Position numbers and translations under genes: made by a program. Shown in pieces: positions 8,874 through 38,745 of a stretch of DNA of 38,745 bases. This DNA is from a virus. How positions within the stretch are numbered: position 1 is the stretch's first letter; each line of letters opens with the position of its first letter. Below the pieces are notes generated by a model that searched no databases, was not told where the DNA came from, and saw only the letters and a list, made by a program, of their open reading frames with translations. Location of the stretch: IMG/VR virus record IMGVR_UViG_3300018420_000045, positions 1-38,745 of that record. One strand, 5' to 3'.

Positions 8874-8952
8874 CTAACCGTTATGGTTAATGATTATGGT
8901 TAACAAATCCTTTGCGTGATTGGACATATAGGGAACAACTCGTATTTGTCAA
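8874..8952 (-). promoter_or_regulatory. Late promoter with three-half-site operator, head genes
   Basis: On the minus strand TTGACA (8947-8952), a 16-nt spacer and TATATG (8925-8930) form a near-consensus promoter ahead of the scaffold gene. Downstream lie half-sites CTAA (8874), TTAA (8887) and TTAA (8900), each exactly 13 bp apart. The leader is about 110 nt and contains a GGGCC/GGCCGG-rich stretch before the SD. The operator lies in the early transcribed region, where a bound protein could block clearance. Confidence 0.65.
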
Positions 8953-10708: not shown

Positions 10709-10736
10709 TAGTTAATCACTTTGGTTAATTTGTCAA
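10709..10736 (-). promoter_or_regulatory. Portal promoter with operator inside, leaderless arrangement
   Basis: Minus strand TTGACA (10731-10736), a 16-nt spacer and TAACTA (10709-10714). TTAA cores at 10712 and 10725 (13 bp apart) occupy the spacer and -10 region. Six bases separate the -10 box from the portal ATG, so transcription would begin at or beside the start codon. An alternative -10 (TATACT) would give an unlikely 20-nt spacer. Confidence 0.55.
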
Positions 10737-10810: not shown

Positions 10811-11482
10811 TTACTTCTTCCGGCTGGCCGGGATGGCGGCTTTCTCCTCAGCAGCGCTGTCTCCGGTTGCTGCTTCCTGCTTCGGGTTGTCCGCCCAGTC
10901 GGCGATCTCGAAACGCGGCTTGTAGTTCTTGAAGCCCTTGGACTTGAAGTCCTGAGCGCCGAGAGATACGACTGGGGTCTGCTCCTTGAGATCGTGGATA
11001 GCGGCCTGCTCCATGATCTCGCCGAGCAGGCGACCCACTTCGCGCTTGGCCGATTCCGAACCGAGCTTCAGAATGTACTGCTTGTTGTCGTCCACGCCCT
11101 TCAGGAAGAGCGAGTACTGCATCGACCAGCCTTCGCGCTTCTGAGGATCGGTCGAATACGGGCCGTGGTCGGTAAGATCGTCCTCATCGGGGAGAACGTC
11201 CAGGAGGGAGACTTCGACGGTATCCACCGGCTTTCCGTCCTTCCAGCAGACGTAGCCCTGCTTCGACTCGAAGATGTTCAGGTAGACCTTGGTTCCGCTG
11301 GGGACCGAGACATCCTCACTGCCGTTGTTGTACGAGTAGATACCGACACGACCTTCGAAACGCATGAAGTTCGAGTTGACGGCTGCCGACTTGTCAACAG
11401 CGCCCTGGAGGCGGGCAAGAATTTCAGCCTGAGACATTGCTCGCAGGCTGTTCGAGTTTGATACCGCTAGATTGTTTGCCAT
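10811..11482 (-). CDS. Hypothetical protein, possible ssDNA-binding-like protein
   Basis: A 223-residue soluble protein, not recognised with confidence. Residues 35-110 look like a beta-rich domain (NFMRFEGRVGIYSYNNG, VPSGTKVYLNIFESKQGYVC, then WKDGKPVDTVEVSLLDVLP). The C-terminus is disordered and charged (about 195-223, ending AAEEKAAIPASRKK). The size and the folded N-terminal part with a flexible tail recall phage ssDNA-binding proteins, but the tail is not purely acidic. It has two promoters, an unusual repeated leader and a strong SD (AAAGGA), all of which point to high, controlled expression. It is the last early-type gene before the head operon. Confidence 0.55.
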   Translation of the reverse strand: MANNLAVSNSNSLRAMSQAEILARLQGAVDKSAAVNSNFMRFEGRVGIYSYNNGSEDVSVPSGTKVYLNIFESKQGYVCWKDGKPVDTVEVSLLDVLPDEDDLTDHGPYSTDPQKREGWSMQYSLFLKGVDDNKQYILKLGSESAKREVGRLLGEIMEQAAIHDLKEQTPVVSLGAQDFKSKGFKNYKPRFEIADWADNPKQEAATGDSAAEEKAAIPASRKK

Positions 11483-11556: not shown

Positions 11557-11611
11557 ACCCTACCACAGGCCGCATCGCGTGTCAAGCGTTAAGGTTAAAT
11601 GGAAAGGTTAA
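11557..11611 (-). promoter_or_regulatory. Proximal promoter with upstream 13 + 6 bp operator
   Basis: Minus strand TTGACA (11580-11585), 17-nt spacer, TAGGGT (11557-11562), about 75 nt ahead of the start at 11482. Upstream of the -35 box are TTAA cores at 11589, 11595 and 11608 (6 and 13 bp apart); a single TTAA overlaps the -10 region at 11554. The operator upstream of -35 could act for activation, or as a roadblock to transcripts from the distal promoter. Confidence 0.55.
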
Positions 11612-11662: not shown

Positions 11663-11709
11663 TTAACCTTCCCGGTTAACTATATAGCAGCTATGTGGAT
11701 GGAAGTCAA
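11663..11709 (-). promoter_or_regulatory. Distal promoter with palindromic operator
   Basis: Minus strand TTGACT (11704-11709), 17-nt spacer, TATATA (11681-11686). Just downstream is the most symmetrical operator of the set: GTTAACC-N5-GGTTAAC with TTAA cores at 11663 and 11676. The -35 box overlaps the last codons of the gene at 11706-12179. It is the second promoter serving the 10811-11482 gene. Confidence 0.65.
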
Positions 11710-17036: not shown

Positions 17037-17324
17037 TCAGACGCTCTTGCCAGCGCGATAGATGTGGAGTTTTGTTGCGCGCAGTCCCTCGACGCCGTGT
17101 TCTGCGTACAGCGTCTCCCACTCTCGATACTCTGTCGGAGTGAGGTTGTAAAGTGTCATCGCCTCCTCCCGTGACAACAGCCCACCACGGACGGCATGGA
17201 CCACCTCAGCCTTACGGCGAGGCACCCAGCGACGCGTTTTGGGATCAGGCAAATCGGCCAGCGTGAGGAGTTGCGCGGTAGGGCCGACTACAGCCCTGGG
17301 GCGCTTTGGTGTGCGTGCAGTCAT
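17037..17324 (-). CDS. sciP: SciP-like cell-cycle regulator (DUF1153)
   Basis: A 95-residue protein clearly homologous to Caulobacter SciP: VGP(x)4LLTLADLPDPKTRRWV, then RRKAEVVHAVRGGLLSREEA, YNLTPTEYREWE and HGVEGLRATKLHIYR are the family core. In alphaproteobacteria SciP is a small helical DNA-binding protein that blocks transcription activated by the master regulator CtrA in G1 phase. A phage copy would be expected to shift host cell-cycle transcription or tune phage promoters with CtrA-like sites. I use the ATG at 17324 (SD GGAGG, 9 nt); an earlier start at 17357 has no SD. It precedes rIIA by 18 nt. The family is nearly certain and points to an alphaproteobacterial host. Confidence 0.9.
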   Translation of the reverse strand: MTARTPKRPRAVVGPTAQLLTLADLPDPKTRRWVPRRKAEVVHAVRGGLLSREEAMTLYNLTPTEYREWETLYAEHGVEGLRATKLHIYRAGKSV

Positions 17325-17355
17325 GGGGTCATACCTCCATCGGTTGATGAGAGGC

Positions 17356-17383
17356 AATCTAGCATGTTAACCGCGAATGTAAA
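17356..17383 (-). promoter_or_regulatory. Possible promoter for the sciP-like gene
   Basis: Minus strand TTTACA (17378-17383), 16-nt spacer, TAGATT (17356-17361), about 32 nt ahead of the ATG. A single GTTAAC half-site (TTAA at 17367) lies in the spacer, but no partner exists at 13 bp. Confidence 0.4.
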
Positions 17384-17402
17384 GCGTATCTATACGGTAT
17401 GG

Positions 17403-17417
17403 TTAATACTTAGTTAC
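17403..17417. promoter_or_regulatory. TTAA-N7-TTAC, CtrA-box-like site next to sciP
   Basis: TTAA at 17403 and TTAC at 17414 are separated by 7 bp, the spacing of the CtrA consensus TTAA-N7-TTAA (one mismatch). On the minus strand the first half reads TTAACCAT, the extended CtrA half-site. It overlaps the stop of the exonuclease gene and lies 20 bp upstream of the putative sciP -35. One such match could be chance. Confidence 0.3.
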
Positions 17418-18116: not shown

Positions 18117-18174
18117 CACCGTTTGAGTTAACATTTATGGTTAACATTATAGTCCAAACGGTGAACAAAGTCAA
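18117..18174 (-). promoter_or_regulatory. Near-perfect promoter, operator and flanking inverted repeat
   Basis: Minus strand TTGACT (18169-18174), 17-nt spacer, TATAAT (18146-18151). Right after the -10 box lies GTTAACCATAAATGTTAAC (TTAA cores 18128 and 18141, 13 bp apart). The whole is bracketed by a perfect 9-bp inverted repeat, CACCGTTTG (18117-18125) and CAAACGGTG (18155-18163). This is the strongest promoter in the window and drives the exonuclease/sciP/rII operon. Confidence 0.75.
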
Positions 18175-18238: not shown

Positions 18239-18416
18239 TTACAGACGGATTAGCACGAATCGGCGTCCTCGTTGCTCTGTCCTGCCGTCCTCAGTCCCTA
18301 GGCTAGACCTTTTCGCCTTCGGGTTAAGCTCCCCAAACTGGCGGTACGTGGCGGTGAGTCCACGCCCTATGCCTTTTGGGTCGGTCGCTTCAAGCTCTTT
18401 TGTCTAACTTAGACAT
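18239..18416 (-). pseudogene. Small gene apparently split by a +1 frameshift at AAAA
   Basis: An ATG at 18416 has a good SD (GAGG, 9 nt) inside the end of the TusA-like gene but reads only MSKLDKRA before a stop. One base further a 54-codon frame without any ATG, GTG or TTG start is open to the TAA at 18239. Removing one A from the four at 18398-18401 joins them into a 58-residue protein starting MSKLDKELEATDPKGIGRGL and ending RRFVLIRL. I do not recognise it. It may be a programmed frameshift, a decayed gene or a base-calling error. Apart from the inverted repeat and promoter it is the only candidate in 18112-18408. Confidence 0.4.
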
Positions 18417-18633
18417 CTTTTCGTACCTCGTAAGAGTGGAATCCTGCCTCCTCGCGGAAGCTTAGGAATTCCGCCCCGCTCTTCTTAAACAAAGGGGGGA
18501 AATCTGTTCTCGCGTCGTCGTCATCGGCGAGCACGCGGAAGGTAACACCGGTTGGAACTTTCTTCAAGTGCTGTTTCAACCGCATGGAAGATATCGGGCA
18601 ACGGAGGCCGCGTAGGTCGATATCGTGAGACAT
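18409..18633 (-). CDS. TusA/SirA-like sulfur carrier protein
   Basis: A 74-residue protein beginning SHDIDLRGLRCPISSMRLKQ, the TusA signature (D-x-R-G-L-x-C-P), followed by VTFRVLADDDDARTDFPPLF and ending in a strand (FHSYEVRK). In bacteria TusA carries persulfide sulfur on its Cys (C12 here) toward tRNA thiolation, molybdopterin and other pathways. The second proline of the usual C-P-x-P motif is Ser (C-P-I-S), so sulfur transfer may be altered. ATG at 18633 overlaps the previous stop (TGATG). A phage gene for a sulfur relay protein is unusual. The fold call is strong; activity is uncertain. Confidence 0.75.
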   Translation of the reverse strand: MSHDIDLRGLRCPISSMRLKQHLKKVPTGVTFRVLADDDDARTDFPPLFKKSGAEFLSFREEAGFHSYEVRKDV

Positions 18634-18884
18634 CACGCCGCTCTCCCCAGGGTTGCGAGCGGGACAACGATGTCGCCACCGAAAACTACCGCGCCTTCGT
18701 CGTCGTGGACGGCGTAGGTCCCCGCATGGTAGTCGAAGAACAGGTCGCCAGGAGGAAGGTCAACCGCGTCGTCTGGCTCGAATCCGTAGAACAGCAGACC
18801 GCTGTCGCTTACCTGATCCCACCCGGTGTGCGTACCGACCACCCTTCCAAGAATAATCAAAGGAGTTCTGTCTTCAGTCGTCAT
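18633..18884 (-). CDS. Hypothetical protein, 83 residues
   Basis: Small acidic beta-type protein of unknown function (LIILGRVVGTHTGWDQVSD, then LLFYGFEPDDAVDLPPGDLF). It has no cysteine and no membrane segment. It overlaps the Zn-finger gene upstream by 11 bases and the TusA-like gene downstream by one base, so it is co-translated with both. The closing VFGGDIVVPLATLGRAA is compatible with a small barrel. No homologous family recognised. Confidence 0.5.
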   Translation of the reverse strand: MTTEDRTPLIILGRVVGTHTGWDQVSDSGLLFYGFEPDDAVDLPPGDLFFDYHAGTYAVHDDEGAVVFGGDIVVPLATLGRAA

Positions 18885-21462: not shown

Positions 21463-22923
21463 CTATTCCCTCTCGTGCATGTAGTGATAGGATGCGACGA
21501 TGAGTTGATTCTTGGCGCGCGTTGCCGCCGTGTACCACCACTTCTTCCAGTCCTGGTGACTCTCTGGCATCATAGTTCCGAGCATGAACACTTTGTCGTA
21601 CTCACTCCCCTGTGCCCGGTGACATGTGATGACGTTGGCCCACAGCACCTTTACGCGGTTCGCGCCTTGAGTGTAGCTCGCGTAGCGTCGAATACCCTGA
21701 TCTCGCTGGTAGCTTGGATGAATCTGTTGCGGAATCAGATCAACCATCGATACGGTGATGGTGCGCGTCCTACCGTATCGGTCGGTGACACTAAGCGCCG
21801 CGATATATGGGTTATTGCTGCGCGCGTCTGCACGGTCAGGTTTTCCTGTGTAACCGTAAAACTGTACACCCTCCACTGTAACGATGTCTCCGCGAGACAG
21901 TCTAACAGTGTCGTTGTTGTCGTCGATGTAAAGTTTTTCTCCCTTCATAGGGAGCCACGGGAACCTCTGAATATCGAAGTCGAACCCGAGCGCCTTACGC
22001 AGGCGTGGTGCAATGGCGTGCCTCTCCTTATTCTGCCAGACGATGAACTGCGAATCCTCGTGTCCTTTGATGGAGCCAATGGAGCCGTCCCTTATCATCT
22101 TGACATCATCGTAGTCGGACATCTCCTTGATCGTAGGAACGCGGCCTGCGTGAAGGGAGTGTGCGTACTTCAGAATGCCGCTATCTGCGCCTTGTCTCAG
22201 AATCTCTTTCAGGTGAACGTCAGCGTTGTTGAAATCCACGGCAGGTTGCTCGTTGACAGGCGGTAGCTGTGCCTCGTCTCCAACGAATATGCGCGGAAGG
22301 TTTACGGGCGTGATGAGGTTCGTATATATCTTATCGCGACCAATCATAGACGCTTCGTCAAACAGTAAGATCGAGAAGTCAGATTCGATCTCCTCTGGCA
22401 ACTTACCGGTGAAACTGAGAGTGTCCCCTTGCTTAGCCCTACGATCCAGGTCGCGCAGCATCTTGGTCTCTTCCGCCTCCTCTTCAGGCGTCAGTCCACC
22501 GCGCTCCTCTCTGGCGGATTCTAACTCATCCAACCTCTTGTGCATCTTAGCCAGTGCGTCGCTCGGACGATCTGCCAACGCTTTGTGGAGCGTCATCGCC
22601 TGAACATCGCTGATACCTGCCGCCAGAAGTTTCTGGTTTACGACACTCGCAGCCTTTCCAGTTGGTGCGCACACTGCGGGGCGGTGCCCCATGTTCAGGA
22701 GCGCCCCTATCAAGCGAACCATCGTAGTCGTCTTACCAGTACCCGCAAGCCCGGAGAGAATAAATTCACTCTTCGGAATCGAATTCATCGCAAACTGCGT
22801 CGCCTTGTTCAGCGCCGTCTGCTGATTCTCCGTCAAGGAGACTTCCGAGGAAGCGCGCTGCGTCGTTCTTCCTATAGGTGTGGAAGGCTCGTCTGACGGA
22901 ATGCACTGAGGTGCCGTATTCAT
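21463..22923 (-). CDS. RecD/Dda-type SF1B DNA helicase
   Basis: A 486-residue 5'-3' helicase. The Q-like motif LTENQQTAL (about 29-37), Walker A GLAGTGKTTT (58-67), CAPTGKAAS (Ia), Walker B LLFDEAS (185-191), GDEAQLPPV (III), TCHRAQGSEYDKVF (V) and WYTAATRAKNQL (VI) are all present. Similar helicases unwind the phage fork or remove proteins in T4 (Dda). I take the ATG at 22923 (AGGGA, 8 nt). This start lies 158 bp inside the 3' end of the HTH gene, an overlap retained because the first helicase motif is itself inside the overlap. A TTG further in is a possible alternative. Confidence 0.85.
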   Translation of the reverse strand: MNTAPQCIPSDEPSTPIGRTTQRASSEVSLTENQQTALNKATQFAMNSIPKSEFILSGLAGTGKTTTMVRLIGALLNMGHRPAVCAPTGKAASVVNQKLLAAGISDVQAMTLHKALADRPSDALAKMHKRLDELESAREERGGLTPEEEAEETKMLRDLDRRAKQGDTLSFTGKLPEEIESDFSILLFDEASMIGRDKIYTNLITPVNLPRIFVGDEAQLPPVNEQPAVDFNNADVHLKEILRQGADSGILKYAHSLHAGRVPTIKEMSDYDDVKMIRDGSIGSIKGHEDSQFIVWQNKERHAIAPRLRKALGFDFDIQRFPWLPMKGEKLYIDDNNDTVRLSRGDIVTVEGVQFYGYTGKPDRADARSNNPYIAALSVTDRYGRTRTITVSMVDLIPQQIHPSYQRDQGIRRYASYTQGANRVKVLWANVITCHRAQGSEYDKVFMLGTMMPESHQDWKKWWYTAATRAKNQLIVASYHYMHERE

Positions 22924-23173
22924 CTGCAATTTCCCTAACTGTCGTCTTCTTGTCCAGGTATGCGGCCCACAGCCTAGGCACGTGGCTGTATGGGATCGTA
23001 GGAGGCCGTCCAGGAGAACCTTTGTCCCTCCCGGCTTCCCTTAGAATCCGCCTTACGGTGCGCGGGTCAACGCCGAGCAATTCGGCGATGCGGCGTATAG
23101 GAGTCCCTTTATTATTCAGGTCTATGACTCTTAGACGTTGCGCACCTACAGTTCTCGTGCGTTTTACGGACAC
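22766..23173 (-). CDS. Double helix-turn-helix DNA-binding protein
   Basis: A 135-residue protein from a GTG at 23173 with two HTH units: TPIRRIAELLGVDPRTVRRI (about 24-43) and TTVREIADEYGTSVHSVRRA (about 76-95). Both match the resolvase/transposase-type HTH. The N-terminus is basic and the last 25 residues are acidic (GESADGAEQGDAVCDEFDSE). It may be a transcription regulator and is a candidate for the protein that reads the operators of this genome. The acidic tail is the part that overlaps the helicase gene in another frame. Start uncertain: the SD is weak and the frame is open further upstream without a standard start. Confidence 0.6.
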   Translation of the reverse strand: MSVKRTRTVGAQRLRVIDLNNKGTPIRRIAELLGVDPRTVRRILREAGRDKGSPGRPPTIPYSHVPRLWAAYLDKKTTVREIADEYGTSVHSVRRAFHTYRKNDAARFLGSLLDGESADGAEQGDAVCDEFDSEE

Positions 23174-25275: not shown

Positions 25276-25335
25276 TTAACCTTCCGAATTAACCTTAACG
25301 ATGTCTCTTATAGCCGACACACCCCCATGTGTCAA
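25276..25335 (-). promoter_or_regulatory. Consensus promoter with 13 + 6 bp operator
   Basis: Minus strand TTGACA (25330-25335), 17-nt spacer, TATAAG (25307-25312). TTAA cores at 25276, 25289 and 25295 follow within the leader; the ribosome site is inside the operator, so a bound protein would mask transcription and the SD region alike. It serves the metallophosphoesterase, helicase and polymerase transcript. Confidence 0.75.
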
Positions 25336-25342
25336 CCTCGCC

Positions 25343-25831
25343 TTATCGTCTATCGAACTCGAAGCGGACCACAGGGCCGACTTCGCGGGTCTGCGTGATT
25401 AGGCTGAGGACAAACTCCTCAGGCGTCCTGATGCCGTCGTCGGGAGGCATGAACACGAAAACAATGGACGGAGGAGAGGAATCGCTGAACCCAACACAGT
25501 ACGACCAGTCCTCCGCCTCGGTGTCGTGTGCTTCTGCGACAACATCCAGGATAGCCTCGACGAGTTCCAGTTCGATCACGCTGTCTACGTGATAACTTAG
25601 GCTACTGGAATCGAGTACTGTCCGCTTATCCCTCGGCATCTTCGCTATAGATGCGATGAACGAATCGTCGAGTGGGAAAGATACGAATAAGTGCTTGTTG
25701 TCGTAGACTCCGAATATCCCGTCCTCGAAACACTTACGGATACCGTAGAAAGAGACAGTACCGCCCTTGAGAGACTTACTATCGAGCGGCAGCAAGTCGT
25801 CGATAATTCCATCAGTCACATTCAGTTTCAT
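25343..25831 (-). CDS. Hypothetical protein, 162 residues
   Basis: Unknown function. Mixed alpha/beta protein with KLNVTDGIIDDLLPLDSKSL at the start, a helix-forming VDSVIELELVEAILDVVAEA in the middle and a beta-type SIVFVFMPPDDGIRTPEEF near the end. Acidic overall. Its ATG overlaps by four bases the stop of the GH114-like gene, and it ends just before the promoter at 25276-25335, so it closes the upstream transcript. No recognised family. Confidence 0.55.
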   Translation of the reverse strand: MKLNVTDGIIDDLLPLDSKSLKGGTVSFYGIRKCFEDGIFGVYDNKHLFVSFPLDDSFIASIAKMPRDKRTVLDSSSLSYHVDSVIELELVEAILDVVAEAHDTEAEDWSYCVGFSDSSPPSIVFVFMPPDDGIRTPEEFVLSLITQTREVGPVVRFEFDRR

Positions 25832-26592
25832 CGCGTAACCTCGTCTGGATTCTTGTCCAGTTCACGCGATGTAACGAGAGGTACGAACCCTCTTTCTCGG
25901 AGGACTCGAACAGTATCGTCGGGATTGACGGTAGCATACTCTGTGGCGAACACAGGCTTACCTCCTAGGAAGCGGAGGCACCAGTCCACGTCCCTACGAT
26001 GTTCCTCAGAAGTCTCAGCATCATCCTCGTCATACAGGTAGTTCTCGATACCGATACCATCGATGATATTCACGTACGCGCGATACTCCAGGAGGTCTGG
26101 TGCATTCTGCGGGATGATAAGGAACGTGCTGTCATTCTTCTTAGCGCGCTCTGCGATGTCCTTGATGAACTCCAGCATGAGCATGGCCATCCTTTCACGG
26201 CCTTGCTCCTCCCAGTACTGATACACGTCCACGACATCGAGGTACGCGCCGTCGAAGCCCATCTTCATAATAACGTCGAGCTGTTTGAAGACAATCTCCT
26301 GCCACTCCGGCATCCAGAACTTGGCCCGGTAGTTTCCTTTCCAATCCGGGTTCTCTTGTCCTACGTAGTCGGCGAACGGATTCCAGTATGAACGATAGTC
26401 CTCAGCCTCGCCTACGGATAGATAGCACAGCGCCTTCGCTTTTCCGTTGTTTGTGACTTCACGAAGTTCCCCAGGTTTCCAGTAGGTGCCGTCCCCTTTT
26501 TGCGGATCGAGGATGTATAGATCGCTATCGTCGGCGCTTAACTTATCCAGTTGTGCACCCTGAAGTTGGTAGTGAAACTTCCTATACGTCAT
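25828..26592 (-). CDS. GH114 / TM1410-like glycoside hydrolase
   Basis: A 254-residue (beta/alpha)8-type protein of the TM1410/GH114 family: WxYQLQG-like YQLQGAQLDKL at the start, KALCYLSVGEAEDYRSYW (53-70), the core MGFDGAYLDVVDVYQYW (111-127, D114, D119, D122), FLIIPQNAPDLL (157-168) and GIGIENYLYDED (181-190, E183). GH114 members hydrolyse alpha-1,4-galactosaminyl chains, as in the Pel polysaccharide hydrolase. No signal peptide is present, and the gene is in the replication block. The role could be cleavage of a cytoplasmic sugar polymer or release at lysis. Fold is well supported; substrate unknown. Confidence 0.7.
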   Translation of the reverse strand: MTYRKFHYQLQGAQLDKLSADDSDLYILDPQKGDGTYWKPGELREVTNNGKAKALCYLSVGEAEDYRSYWNPFADYVGQENPDWKGNYRAKFWMPEWQEIVFKQLDVIMKMGFDGAYLDVVDVYQYWEEQGRERMAMLMLEFIKDIAERAKKNDSTFLIIPQNAPDLLEYRAYVNIIDGIGIENYLYDEDDAETSEEHRRDVDWCLRFLGGKPVFATEYATVNPDDTVRVLRERGFVPLVTSRELDKNPDEVTR

Positions 26593-30980: not shown

Positions 30981-31352
30981 TTATTTATTTGGTAAATTTC
31001 TTATCTGCCAGTCGGCGATCAGTCTCGTCACTTGATCCAATGATTTTGCGTATTTCTTTATGATATCCTGAAGGGCCTTTTCAGTGTAGTCCGCTATGTG
31101 CATATCCACGAGGTCACGGAACTCCTCGCTGCGGTAGCGGAGGGTATCGATAACAAGCTCTTTGTCTGGGTACCTCAAAGATGGATCGCGTAGAGTATCC
31201 GCCGCGCGGTCGTACTGGTGCGCGAGGTAAAGGAGAGTTTCGGCTATTTTGCGATGCGGTGGAGCGTCATCGACAATCTTATCCGGGTCCAGCTTTACGC
31301 GTGGACGTTCGATAACTTCGTCGGACTCCGCATTGTAGTAATTTATCTTCAT
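30981..31352 (-). CDS. Hypothetical helical protein, probably leaderless
   Basis: A 123-residue protein (MKINYYNAESDEVIERPRVK, then YLAHQYDRAADTLRDPSL and a DYTEKALQDIIKKYAKSL helix) of unknown function. The ATG at 31352 has no SD: only TCTTCCTCC precedes it. It is six bases after the putative -10 box, so it should be translated from a leaderless mRNA. An arginine/aspartate-rich helical bundle is likely. It is first in its transcript, under operator control. Confidence 0.6.
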   Translation of the reverse strand: MKINYYNAESDEVIERPRVKLDPDKIVDDAPPHRKIAETLLYLAHQYDRAADTLRDPSLRYPDKELVIDTLRYRSEEFRDLVDMHIADYTEKALQDIIKKYAKSLDQVTRLIADWQIRNLPNK

Positions 31353-31358
31353 GGAGGA

Positions 31359-31387
31359 AGATTAACAGTATTCATTAACCATGTCAA
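31359..31387 (-). promoter_or_regulatory. Leaderless promoter with operator
   Basis: Minus strand TTGACA (31382-31387), 17-nt spacer, TAATCT (31359-31364), 6 bases, then ATG at 31352. TTAA cores at 31362 and 31375 (13 bp apart) fill the spacer and -10 as in the portal promoter at 10709-10736. Confidence 0.65.
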
Positions 31388-32082: not shown

Positions 32083-32676
32083 CTAGATCGAGAAAGCCTT
32101 TTTTGCTCTCGACACCACCTTTTCCGTCATCTGTAGCCTCAATAGGTAAATCTCCTCCTTACCAGGAGGGATATTCCTAGGGCCATCCCCTGCGAACTGG
32201 AATCCAAGCAGTTTGCTGTAAGTCACCGCCAGAGAGTGAATAGCTGTTGTGTAAACGTCGTTCACCCCCGCCTTGATGGCCCGCTCCGCCGCCCTCCCGA
32301 GCATGTTGTATATGATCCGGTAACGTACGGCTGGGTTGATGATCATGGGGTCTACCGTCATCCGAGATATCTCCATACCACCCGTGGGGGAGATGACAGT
32401 TGGCCAGTAGGTCTCATGCGGGAGTGGCGTCCCGAAATTCAGTCTGAAACTTCCTACAGGGTCAGTCCCCTTGCAGGCGACGTACAACTCGGCCCCTCTT
32501 CTCTTGTCGTTGTTGTCTGTGAGGTCACACGGGCGCTCGTTGATCAGATACTTCTGATACGCAGCGAACCGCATATCGGCGATCCGCTTCAGATCGTCGG
32601 TTCTTTCAATGTGTAGATTCATATATCGTACTATGACGCACTCAGAACGAAGACGCTGCTGAACGATGGAATACAT
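32083..32676 (-). CDS. GNAT acyltransferase, LuxI/FeeM-like
   Basis: A 197-residue protein with the acyl-homoserine-lactone / N-acyl amino acid synthase fold. Features: MRFAAYQKYLINERPCD near the start, VGSFRLNFG (strand), the hallmark GMEISRMTVDPMI (LuxI E-x-S/T-R-x-x-V), and IIYNMLGRAAERAIKAGVND then a TAIHSLAVTYSKLLGFQFAG helix-strand as in FeeM and GNAT enzymes. These use acyl-CoA or acyl-ACP to make amino-lipid signals. In a phage it might alter host signalling, or acylate another amine. Start at 32676 (GGAAAG) overlaps the previous gene by 46 bases; an ATG at 32622 is the alternative. Confidence 0.7.
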   Translation of the reverse strand: MYSIVQQRLRSECVIVRYMNLHIERTDDLKRIADMRFAAYQKYLINERPCDLTDNNDKRRGAELYVACKGTDPVGSFRLNFGTPLPHETYWPTVISPTGGMEISRMTVDPMIINPAVRYRIIYNMLGRAAERAIKAGVNDVYTTAIHSLAVTYSKLLGFQFAGDGPRNIPPGKEEIYLLRLQMTEKVVSRAKKAFSI

Positions 32677-37692: not shown

Positions 37693-38745
37693 TCAATAAT
37701 GGGCGAAAGCTTCGGTGATCTCATTCACAAGGTCGCCGACGTTCTGGAGTGAGTGGGCTTTTTTCTGGTCGCCATACGACGACGGGGCGATTGTTCCCTC
37801 AACCGCGTCGATGTAGCATGAGAACTTTCCCTCGGGAGATGAGGCCAGCTCTTCCGGTATGTCGAATTCCTTAAGGAACCCGGCATTCGCTTCGACGAAG
37901 GCGGTATCCGCAGATAGCGTGCACGCGAACCACTCCCTCGGCTCGGCCTTCATCTTCTCGCGTAGCGTGTGTAGCTTCGCGGCGAAGTCAGTCATGTCGT
38001 ATGGGGTGAACCCACCGCCGAACCCTGTCGTCTTGTAGCCTAGAAGAAGCACAGGAATGTTGTTCCTCCACAGCGCCTCTATCAACTCCAGCGTATCATC
38101 GACAGAGAGGATACCGAACACGTGCTGCGCGGTAACGCGCGCACCGCCTCTCCACCCCTCGTGAACAACGGCCCTGATGCGATTCACCTTCTCGATGTCC
38201 TTCAGCTTGTGGACAGATACACCGATGCCACCGCAGCGCTTCGCAGCCTTCACCTTCTCCTCGTCTTTGAGCCACTTCACGGAGTAGGTTGTGAAGTTAG
38301 GGACGATGCCGTAGCGTCGCGCGTCGTTGATCCACTCCACGAAGTCTTGCGACTCCGTTGGTTCGCCGCCGCCCAGCGCGATCTCGAACACGTTGAGGTC
38401 TTTCAGCGCAACCAAGATGCGATATCGAGGGATAGCGTTTGTATCCTTGCCCTTCTTGGTCGAGCCCTGGTAGCAGAATTCACATCCGTAAGGGCAGTAG
38501 TCGGTGATCTTGATGTCCACCAACTCTGGCGTTACGGCCTTGAGATACACGCCGCTTGGGTGGAAGCGAACCTTCGCTCCGGTGCTGCTGTTGAAGAAAA
38601 CTATCCCAGCACCGTCTCTGCGGATGTTGAGAACACAGTTACCGAGATCGATACGCTCCCCCGAGAACGGCGTGTACTCCAGCGGGTCACCGCCATTGTC
38701 GTTGCCACCTACAATGGTGAGAGCGGGGTCGGAGAAGATGTCGAT
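37693..38745 (-). CDS. Radical SAM enzyme, N-terminus beyond the window
   Basis: The frame is open to the right edge: 65 codons lie ahead of the GTG at 38550, ending in FFNSSTGAKVRFHPSGVYLK. The CxxxCxxC cluster (C19, C23 and C26 counted from that GTG, in DYCPYGCEFCYQGS) binds the 4Fe-4S centre that cleaves S-adenosylmethionine. A GGGEPT motif (SAM amino group contact) follows about 35 residues on. Related enzymes install modifications on peptides, RNA or nucleotides. The substrate cannot be read here; the C-terminal third has no second cluster that I can see. The GTG is not necessarily the start. Confidence 0.8.
   Translation of the reverse strand: MDIFSDPALTIVGGNDNGGDPLEYTPFSGERIDLGNCVLNIRRDGAGIVFFNSSTGAKVRFHPSGVYLKAVTPELVDIKITDYCPYGCEFCYQGSTKKGKDTNAIPRYRILVALKDLNVFEIALGGGEPTESQDFVEWINDARRYGIVPNFTTYSVKWLKDEEKVKAAKRCGGIGVSVHKLKDIEKVNRIRAVVHEGWRGGARVTAQHVFGILSVDDTLELIEALWRNNIPVLLLGYKTTGFGGGFTPYDMTDFAAKLHTLREKMKAEPREWFACTLSADTAFVEANAGFLKEFDIPEELASSPEGKFSCYIDAVEGTIAPSSYGDQKKAHSLQNVGDLVNEITEAFAHY

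Follow-up and report, generated by a model that had tools for sequence, protein, structure and literature searches.

A Phage SciP Protein and Paired TTAAC Half-Sites at Phage Promoters: A Possible Link to CtrA-Type Host Control

Introduction

The cell cycle of alphaproteobacterial hosts is governed by the master switch CtrA, which is opposed by the protein SciP. The closest described phages are the CtrA-controlled (LPEG) phages, for which control by CtrA has been published and 'lytic deferment' proposed (Mascolo et al., 2022, PMC9437464), and like the phage described herein they have TTAA/TTAACC half-sites concentrated in intergenic DNA, with repression of phage genes as the proposed outcome. 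They differ in that their canonical N7 boxes are clustered in gap regions or terminal repeats, whereas the present phage has dispersed single N9 pairs located on promoters and, unlike the LPEG phages, carries sciP. A phage that encodes a host cell-cycle regulator is also already known, as the phiCbK-like phages contain a GcrA homologue (PMC3556154), but in that case the regulator is a different one, an activator, and no sciP was found. A third point of comparison is provided by the D5-like regulators of T5 (phrog_323), in which a helix-turn-helix (HTH) regulator lies beside helicase and polymerase genes, much as in the present phage, where the corresponding block also includes a T5 A1-like gene; the protein in question is much shorter, however (135 aa against a 319-position profile), and is matched only over its tandem HTH. 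In Caulobacter, TTAA and TTAACAT half-sites are CtrA motifs, and those located over a −10 element behave as repressor sites (PMC4287350). A search of an open paper library for DUF1153, or for SciP together with phage, returned no earlier report of a phage SciP, which is not proof of absence.

Here we describe a phage genome in which a SciP protein and paired TTAAC half-sites occur together. The DNA analyzed, referred to as the window, is the entire IMG/VR virus record IMGVR_UViG_3300018420_000045 (38,745 bases).

Results

The Phage Genome

Nearly all of the genes in the window are on the minus strand. They include structural and lysis genes (tail tube, neck, lysis, major capsid, scaffold, and portal), genes for DNA handling (a Cas4/RecE-like exonuclease, an exonuclease, DNA polymerase A, helicases, and a T5 A1-like DNA transfer protein), and also rIIB, rIIA, and sciP. 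As there is no integrase among the gene families detected in the window, the phage is likely lytic; a tRNA search of the window found none. The tail tube protein (3–1115, minus; Pfam E = 2.6e-11) has relatives in the Erythrobacter phages L02 and XM05, and the plus-strand open reading frame that overlaps it (120–1214) is probably not a gene. The window also encodes a FeeM-like N-acyl amino acid synthase (32083–32676, minus) whose E value of 4.3e-6 is exactly at the family cut-off, a TusA-like sulfurtransferase (18409–18636, minus), a GH114 glycoside hydrolase (25828–26592, minus), and a radical SAM protein (37693–38550, minus).

The nearest proteins to the portal and A1 proteins are mostly from alphaproteobacterial phages, with identities of approximately 33–43%. 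The closest relatives found for the portal, A1, and polymerase proteins include Microcystis phage Mwe-JY26 (PP438418.1), and as these lists otherwise contain mostly alphaproteobacterial phages, its host label may deserve checking. The sequence GANTC is depleted across the whole window (132 copies against 227 expected), which fits an alphaproteobacterial host with CcrM, where the DNA would be exposed to CcrM-type methylation; the presence of SciP likewise hints at such a host.

The Phage SciP Protein

A sequence-only reading of this DNA had assigned a phage SciP to the range 17037–17417, and this was borne out. The minus-strand gene at 17037–17324 encodes a 95-aa protein of the DUF1153 family (PF06627) that covers positions 4–87 of the 87 in the Pfam profile (E = 1.1e-32; 112.4 bits with a cut-off of 23.5). 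Its likely start is the ATG at 17324, which is preceded by GGAGG, while a TTG-started version of the open reading frame reaches 17357, and the remainder of the range is upstream DNA. By sequence, the solved relatives of the protein are 2oa4 and 2jrt, both DUF1153 structures from Rhodobacterales, and the same two were the only Foldseek matches at E < 0.001 when the predicted model was used (mean pLDDT 79.6; E = 7.8e-6 and 5.5e-5). Taking profile and predicted model together, we regard it as confirmed that this is a full-length DUF1153 protein with a predicted SciP fold.

The phage copy shares with the host SciP proteins of Caulobacter and other Alphaproteobacteria the full-length domain, the fold, the ADLPxxxTRRWV motif, and the HTH region, and 26 columns are invariant in an alignment with ten host SciPs. 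Residues T24 and T65 are needed for function of the Caulobacter protein (PMC4241560), and both threonines are kept in the phage protein when positions are mapped with an inferred offset of +3. Unlike the host proteins it is phage-encoded, between the rIIA and exonuclease genes, and is at most ~54% identical to them. A comparison of the sciP phylogeny with the host copies had been proposed by the sequence-only reading. In a tree of 52 sequences, which with 90 columns allows only a rough placement, the phage protein groups weakly with Rhodobacterales SciPs (SH-aLRT 90) and lies outside them on its own long branch. The motif of Caulobacter SciP, GCGNC-N5-GNCGC, is absent from the window.

Paired Half-Sites

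The same reading had described the extended CtrA half-site TTAACCAT at several places, paired at N9 rather than N7 spacing, and the counts agree on both points. In the window TTAACCAT is present six times where 0.34 copies would be expected, a count attained in 0 of 100 shuffles, and there are seven TTAA-N9-TTAA pairs against 0.14 expected (again 0 of 100 shuffles), whereas the canonical CtrA box, TTAA-N7-TTAA, has no exact match in the window. If one mismatch is allowed the N7 box is found nine times against 4.7 expected, a number that 5 of 100 shuffles reach, and the form TTAA-N7-TTAM is found once in the window against 0.66 expected. The N9 sites are real, and all seven are wholly intergenic in a window that is 11% intergenic. 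Of the features of the LPEG phages, the preference for intergenic DNA is seen here, while clustered, exact TTAA-N7-TTAA boxes are not. The TTAA-N7-TTAC site that had been placed just upstream of sciP is present (17403–17417, plus strand) and shares a TTAA with a longer array, but taken alone it is at the level of chance.

The longer array is TTAACC-N7-ATAG-N7-TTTA (17380–17406, minus), a pattern with one match against 0.00 expected. It lies upstream of sciP and resembles the promoters of host sciP genes (TTAACC-N7-TTAG-N7-TTAA). The sciP promoter, TTTACA-N16-TAGATT (17356–17383, minus), has GTTAACAT within its spacer.

Association of the Sites With Promoters

Every N9 site is near a minus-strand TTGAC(A/T) hexamer followed at 16–17 bp by a plausible −10 element, and the operators, all on the minus strand, occupy several positions relative to these promoters. 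In two cases they begin 8–9 nt past the first base of the −35 element, namely TTAACCAAAGTGATTAA (10712–10728), for which the promoter is that of the portal gene, TTGACA(10736), and the site at 31362–31378, which precedes the gene at 30981–31352 and has TTGACA(31387)-N17-TAATCT as its promoter; both sites are inside the promoter spacer. Two others directly follow the −10 element: TTAACCATAAATGTTAA (18128–18144), behind TTGACT(18174)-N17-TATAAT and before the exonuclease gene, and TTAACC-N5-GGTTAA (11663–11679), behind TTGACT(11709)-N17-TATATA. Further downstream, 43–49 nt past the start of the −35 element, are TTAACC-N7-TTAACC-N7-TTAG (8874–8903), located between TTGACA(8952)-N16-TATATG and the scaffold gene, and a composite operator (25276–25298) that follows TTGACA(25335)-N17-TATAAG and comes before the start codon of the A1/helicase/polymerase block. 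The remaining one, a composite of the form TTAA-N9-TTAA-N2-TTAA (11589–11611), is upstream of the −35 element, just ahead of TTGACA(11585)-N17-TAGGGT, and together they precede the gene at 10811–11482. A near-match array, TTAACC-N7-gTAACC-TTAACG with a further GTTAAC (1134–1183, strand not assigned), is found upstream of the tail tube gene. Several promoters have an extended −35 element, CCCCTTGACA, in common (8952, 10736, and 31387 in the window and 2948 in the sibling contig L005).

By a strict distance rule, six of the seven N9 sites are linked to a promoter, where random intergenic places give 0.89 on average, and only 2 of 20,000 random intergenic sets reached six. In all, most of the phage's strong promoters carry paired half-sites in this unusual 13-bp register. 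Operators scattered in this way over promoter and start would be more in keeping with a repressor than with an activator, and the N9 sites on these sigma70-like promoters look like sites that act in repression.

A candidate phage reader of paired half-sites is a 135-aa protein (22766–23173, minus), encoded in the A1/helicase/polymerase block, that contains HTH_23 in two stretches (E = 2.6e-14). The two HTHs form an internal repeat that none of 2,000 shuffles matched in score. The protein weakly matches phrog_323, 'transcriptional regulator, D5-like,' over residues 10–103 only (E = 1.5e-7), and other HTH families score alike. Its structure model is poor (mean pLDDT 66) and was left out of the fold searches.

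Host sciP Promoters and Host Genomes

The N9 geometry is also found upstream of host sciP genes. The pattern TT[ATC]A[CT]C-N7-TTA[AG] (N9) occurs in 17 of 38 alphaproteobacterial loci, while the N8 and N10 equivalents occur in none and one, respectively, and at most of the N9 loci a further N7 and TTAA follow, giving TTAACC-N7-TTAG-N7-TTAA. This arrangement, an extra N9 half-site beside an N7 box, is conserved in many sciP loci outside the Rhodobacterales (L097–L126 and L013–L022); the Rhodobacterales have the N7 form instead. A matrix was built from the 17 N9 promoters and run against the phage genome (~77,000 positions), where its top score, 8.0, falls in the sciP upstream region and the next best is 3.9. 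With the TTAACC columns removed, the same region still ranks first among 59 TTAAC half-sites. The host promoters themselves have a median score of ~33, and a score of 8 is attained somewhere in 9 of 100 shuffled genomes. Hence, the likeness between the upstream regions of the phage and host sciP genes is suggestive but weak.

Exact TTAAC pairs were counted in eight alphaproteobacterial genomes and gave ~62 pairs at N7 and ~7 each at N8 and N9, a strong N7 bias indicating that ordinary CtrA boxes are not of the N9 type. In 41 genomes resembling Sphingomonadaceae, the family of genome G157 as inferred from its SciP, exact TTAACC/TTAAC pairs at N7, N8, and N9 number 3, 14, and 9, which is too few to decide, and four of the nine N9 pairs contain TTAACCAT. 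In one Sphingomonadaceae locus (L173, genome G247), TTAACC pairs at both N8 and N9 closely precede a DNA methyltransferase gene, which we take to be a putative ccrM.

Related Sites in Other Phages

Three sibling contigs (L005–L007), with a portal protein ~65% identical to that of the window, have TTAACC within the portal promoter, in its spacer, and TTAA-N9-TTAA-N2-TTAA downstream of the promoter for the scaffold gene, in both cases at the same place as in the window. The Erythrobacter phages L02 and XM05 contain dense arrays with spacings of N2, N7, N9, and N17. XM05 encodes a 'mini-SciP' of 64 aa consisting of an HTH and a C-terminal tail, while in L02 N9 arrays are present and SciP was not found. 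Among the proteins matched between the window and these two phages there is no recognized transcription factor except SciP in XM05.

Truncated mini-SciPs of ~64–70 aa were seen in large, Erythrobacter-type phages with TTAAC arrays (L136–L143 and L027:6064–6258), and an alignment search with the mini-SciP found near-identical proteins in eight contigs of up to 176 kb (L136–L143). All five of the mini-SciP records that were checked have TTAAC pairs at N9, several with N7 boxes too, and the composite TTAA-N9-TTAA-N2-TTAA is present in 8 of 8 mini-SciP loci. In the four mini-SciP phages studied in detail, the mini-sciP promoter alone among 8–12 related promoters has TTAACCAT in its spacer; XM05 lacks this pattern at its mini-sciP. 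Distant relatives of A1 (L150–L152) have no such sites. A protein that reads the sites in all of the N9 phages was looked for and was not found.

Searches for SciP gave one weak match in the phage collection, and in IMG/VR returned first only the window's own sibling and then the host-like contigs L023–L026, of which L023 and L026 were rejected as phage since their neighboring genes were judged to be host DNA. A scan of the collection for TTAACCAT-N5-TTAACCAT gave 50 stretches, close to the number that we estimate for chance (~28); it was rejected as evidence and thereafter only locus-by-locus enrichment was used. Another, apparently unrelated phage (L064/L076; IMGVR 3300020810_000801 and 3300020173_000903) has nine TTAACCA-N3-TGRTTAA-like sites, most of them palindromic, and lacks N7 boxes. 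It has no detected protein in common with the window, the likeness may be coincidental, and it was not accepted as an example of a shared host code.

Discussion

Starting from the sites, their spacing, and their overlap with promoters, together with the SciP protein and the likeness of its upstream region to host sciP promoters, we propose that the paired TTAAC half-sites are read by host CtrA or by a CtrA-type host regulator, a reading to which we give a probability of roughly 45%. On this view, paired half-sites would control many of the phage's sigma70-type promoters, the one for sciP among them, and the reader would be CtrA itself or a CtrA-type regulator active at the promoters of host sciP genes. 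By binding in the spacer, on the −10 element, or just downstream, this regulator would block RNA polymerase, so that the portal, scaffold, and exonuclease genes, the A1/helicase/polymerase block, and sciP would be kept low while the regulator is abundant and would rise once it is cleared. The SciP produced during infection may in turn bind the CtrA of the host, so that host genes activated by CtrA remain off.

Several lines of evidence favor a reader of host origin. The N9 geometry is native to hosts, as shown by the 17 of 38 sciP upstream regions, and the upstream region of the phage sciP is the top match to the matrix derived from them. The N9 and N9+N2 elements recur in L02, XM05, and the mini-SciP phages with no recognized common regulator apart from SciP, the operators coincide with promoters in repressor-like positions, and the four phages with TTAACCAT in the mini-sciP spacer alone point the same way, as do the depletion of GANTC and the established control of phages by CtrA (PMC9437464). 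The reading is weakened by the lack of any canonical TTAA-N7-TTAA in the window when ordinary host CtrA boxes are N7, by the weak matrix match and the absent Caulobacter SciP motif, and by the fact that the phage has a candidate regulator of its own. The sequence-only reading had left a choice between host control through CtrA and SciP and a look-alike regulator: the components proved to be real and the comparison with hosts supports a link with CtrA-type promoters, but the look-alike option is still open, given the missing N7 boxes, the eight host genomes, and the tandem-HTH protein.

That protein is the most likely candidate if the operators belong to a dedicated phage regulator, an explanation that we hold to be a serious but somewhat less probable one. 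Its two HTHs would read a pair of half-sites spaced by 13 bp, and the protein would repress phage promoters, the one for its own block among them, thereby timing the lytic program; SciP would be just one of the regulated genes, acting on the host independently. In favor of this are the internal repeat and the D5-like match, the strict 13-bp register with zero N7 boxes, the operator at 25276 ahead of the block containing its gene, and the lack of any excess of exact N9 pairs in the eight host genomes, and the unrelated phage L064/L076 demonstrates that phage operators of such a form exist. It counts against this that relatives of the protein were not found in other N9-bearing phages, including XM05 and L02, even though the N9+N2 composite is common to them, and that the N9 geometry recurs at host sciP promoters. 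This last feature might instead reflect a host regulator other than CtrA that reads TTAACC-N7-TTA(A/G) at host sciP and phage promoters, as the N9 half-site in hosts is upstream of a separate TTAG-N7-TTAA box and could be that of a second factor. TTAACC is itself a CtrA half-site, however, and we consider such a regulator improbable; we know of no non-CtrA factor that reads this element in host sciP promoters. More improbable still is that the phage SciP binds the TTAACC sites as the phage's own repressor. SciP is an HTH protein reported to bind DNA in Caulobacter, where about half of its ChIP peaks contain TTAACAT (PMC4287350), and N9 arrays are accompanied by SciP or mini-SciP in the window phage, in XM05, and in G202/G214–G217, but the purified Caulobacter protein protects GCGNC and not TTAACAT (PMC4287350), L02 has the same arrays without SciP, and the divergent SciP-like loci L145, L146, L148, and L149 have no TTAACCAT nearby.

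A host CtrA-type reader would explain both a code shared by phages with different regulators and the geometry of host sciP promoters, and on that account is the explanation we tentatively prefer, at odds just short of even. A broader and more doubtful proposal is that two groups of alphaproteobacterial phages, the present one with a full-length SciP and the large Erythrobacter-type phages with a mini-SciP, took over the CtrA antagonist and put SciP and much of the genome under a host-derived N9 TTAACC code, which would form a closed loop wherein CtrA gates the phage and the phage SciP then disables the output of CtrA.

If true, the phage would make use of both sides of a host switch, sensing CtrA by way of its operators and opposing it with a SciP of its own, and a compact model, its regulon defined at ~10 promoters, would be at hand for testing whether lysis is deferred according to CtrA. 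The mini-SciPs hint at the portion of SciP that forms its working core, and the N9 geometry shared with hosts draws attention to a conserved but little-noted element in the upstream regions of host sciP genes.
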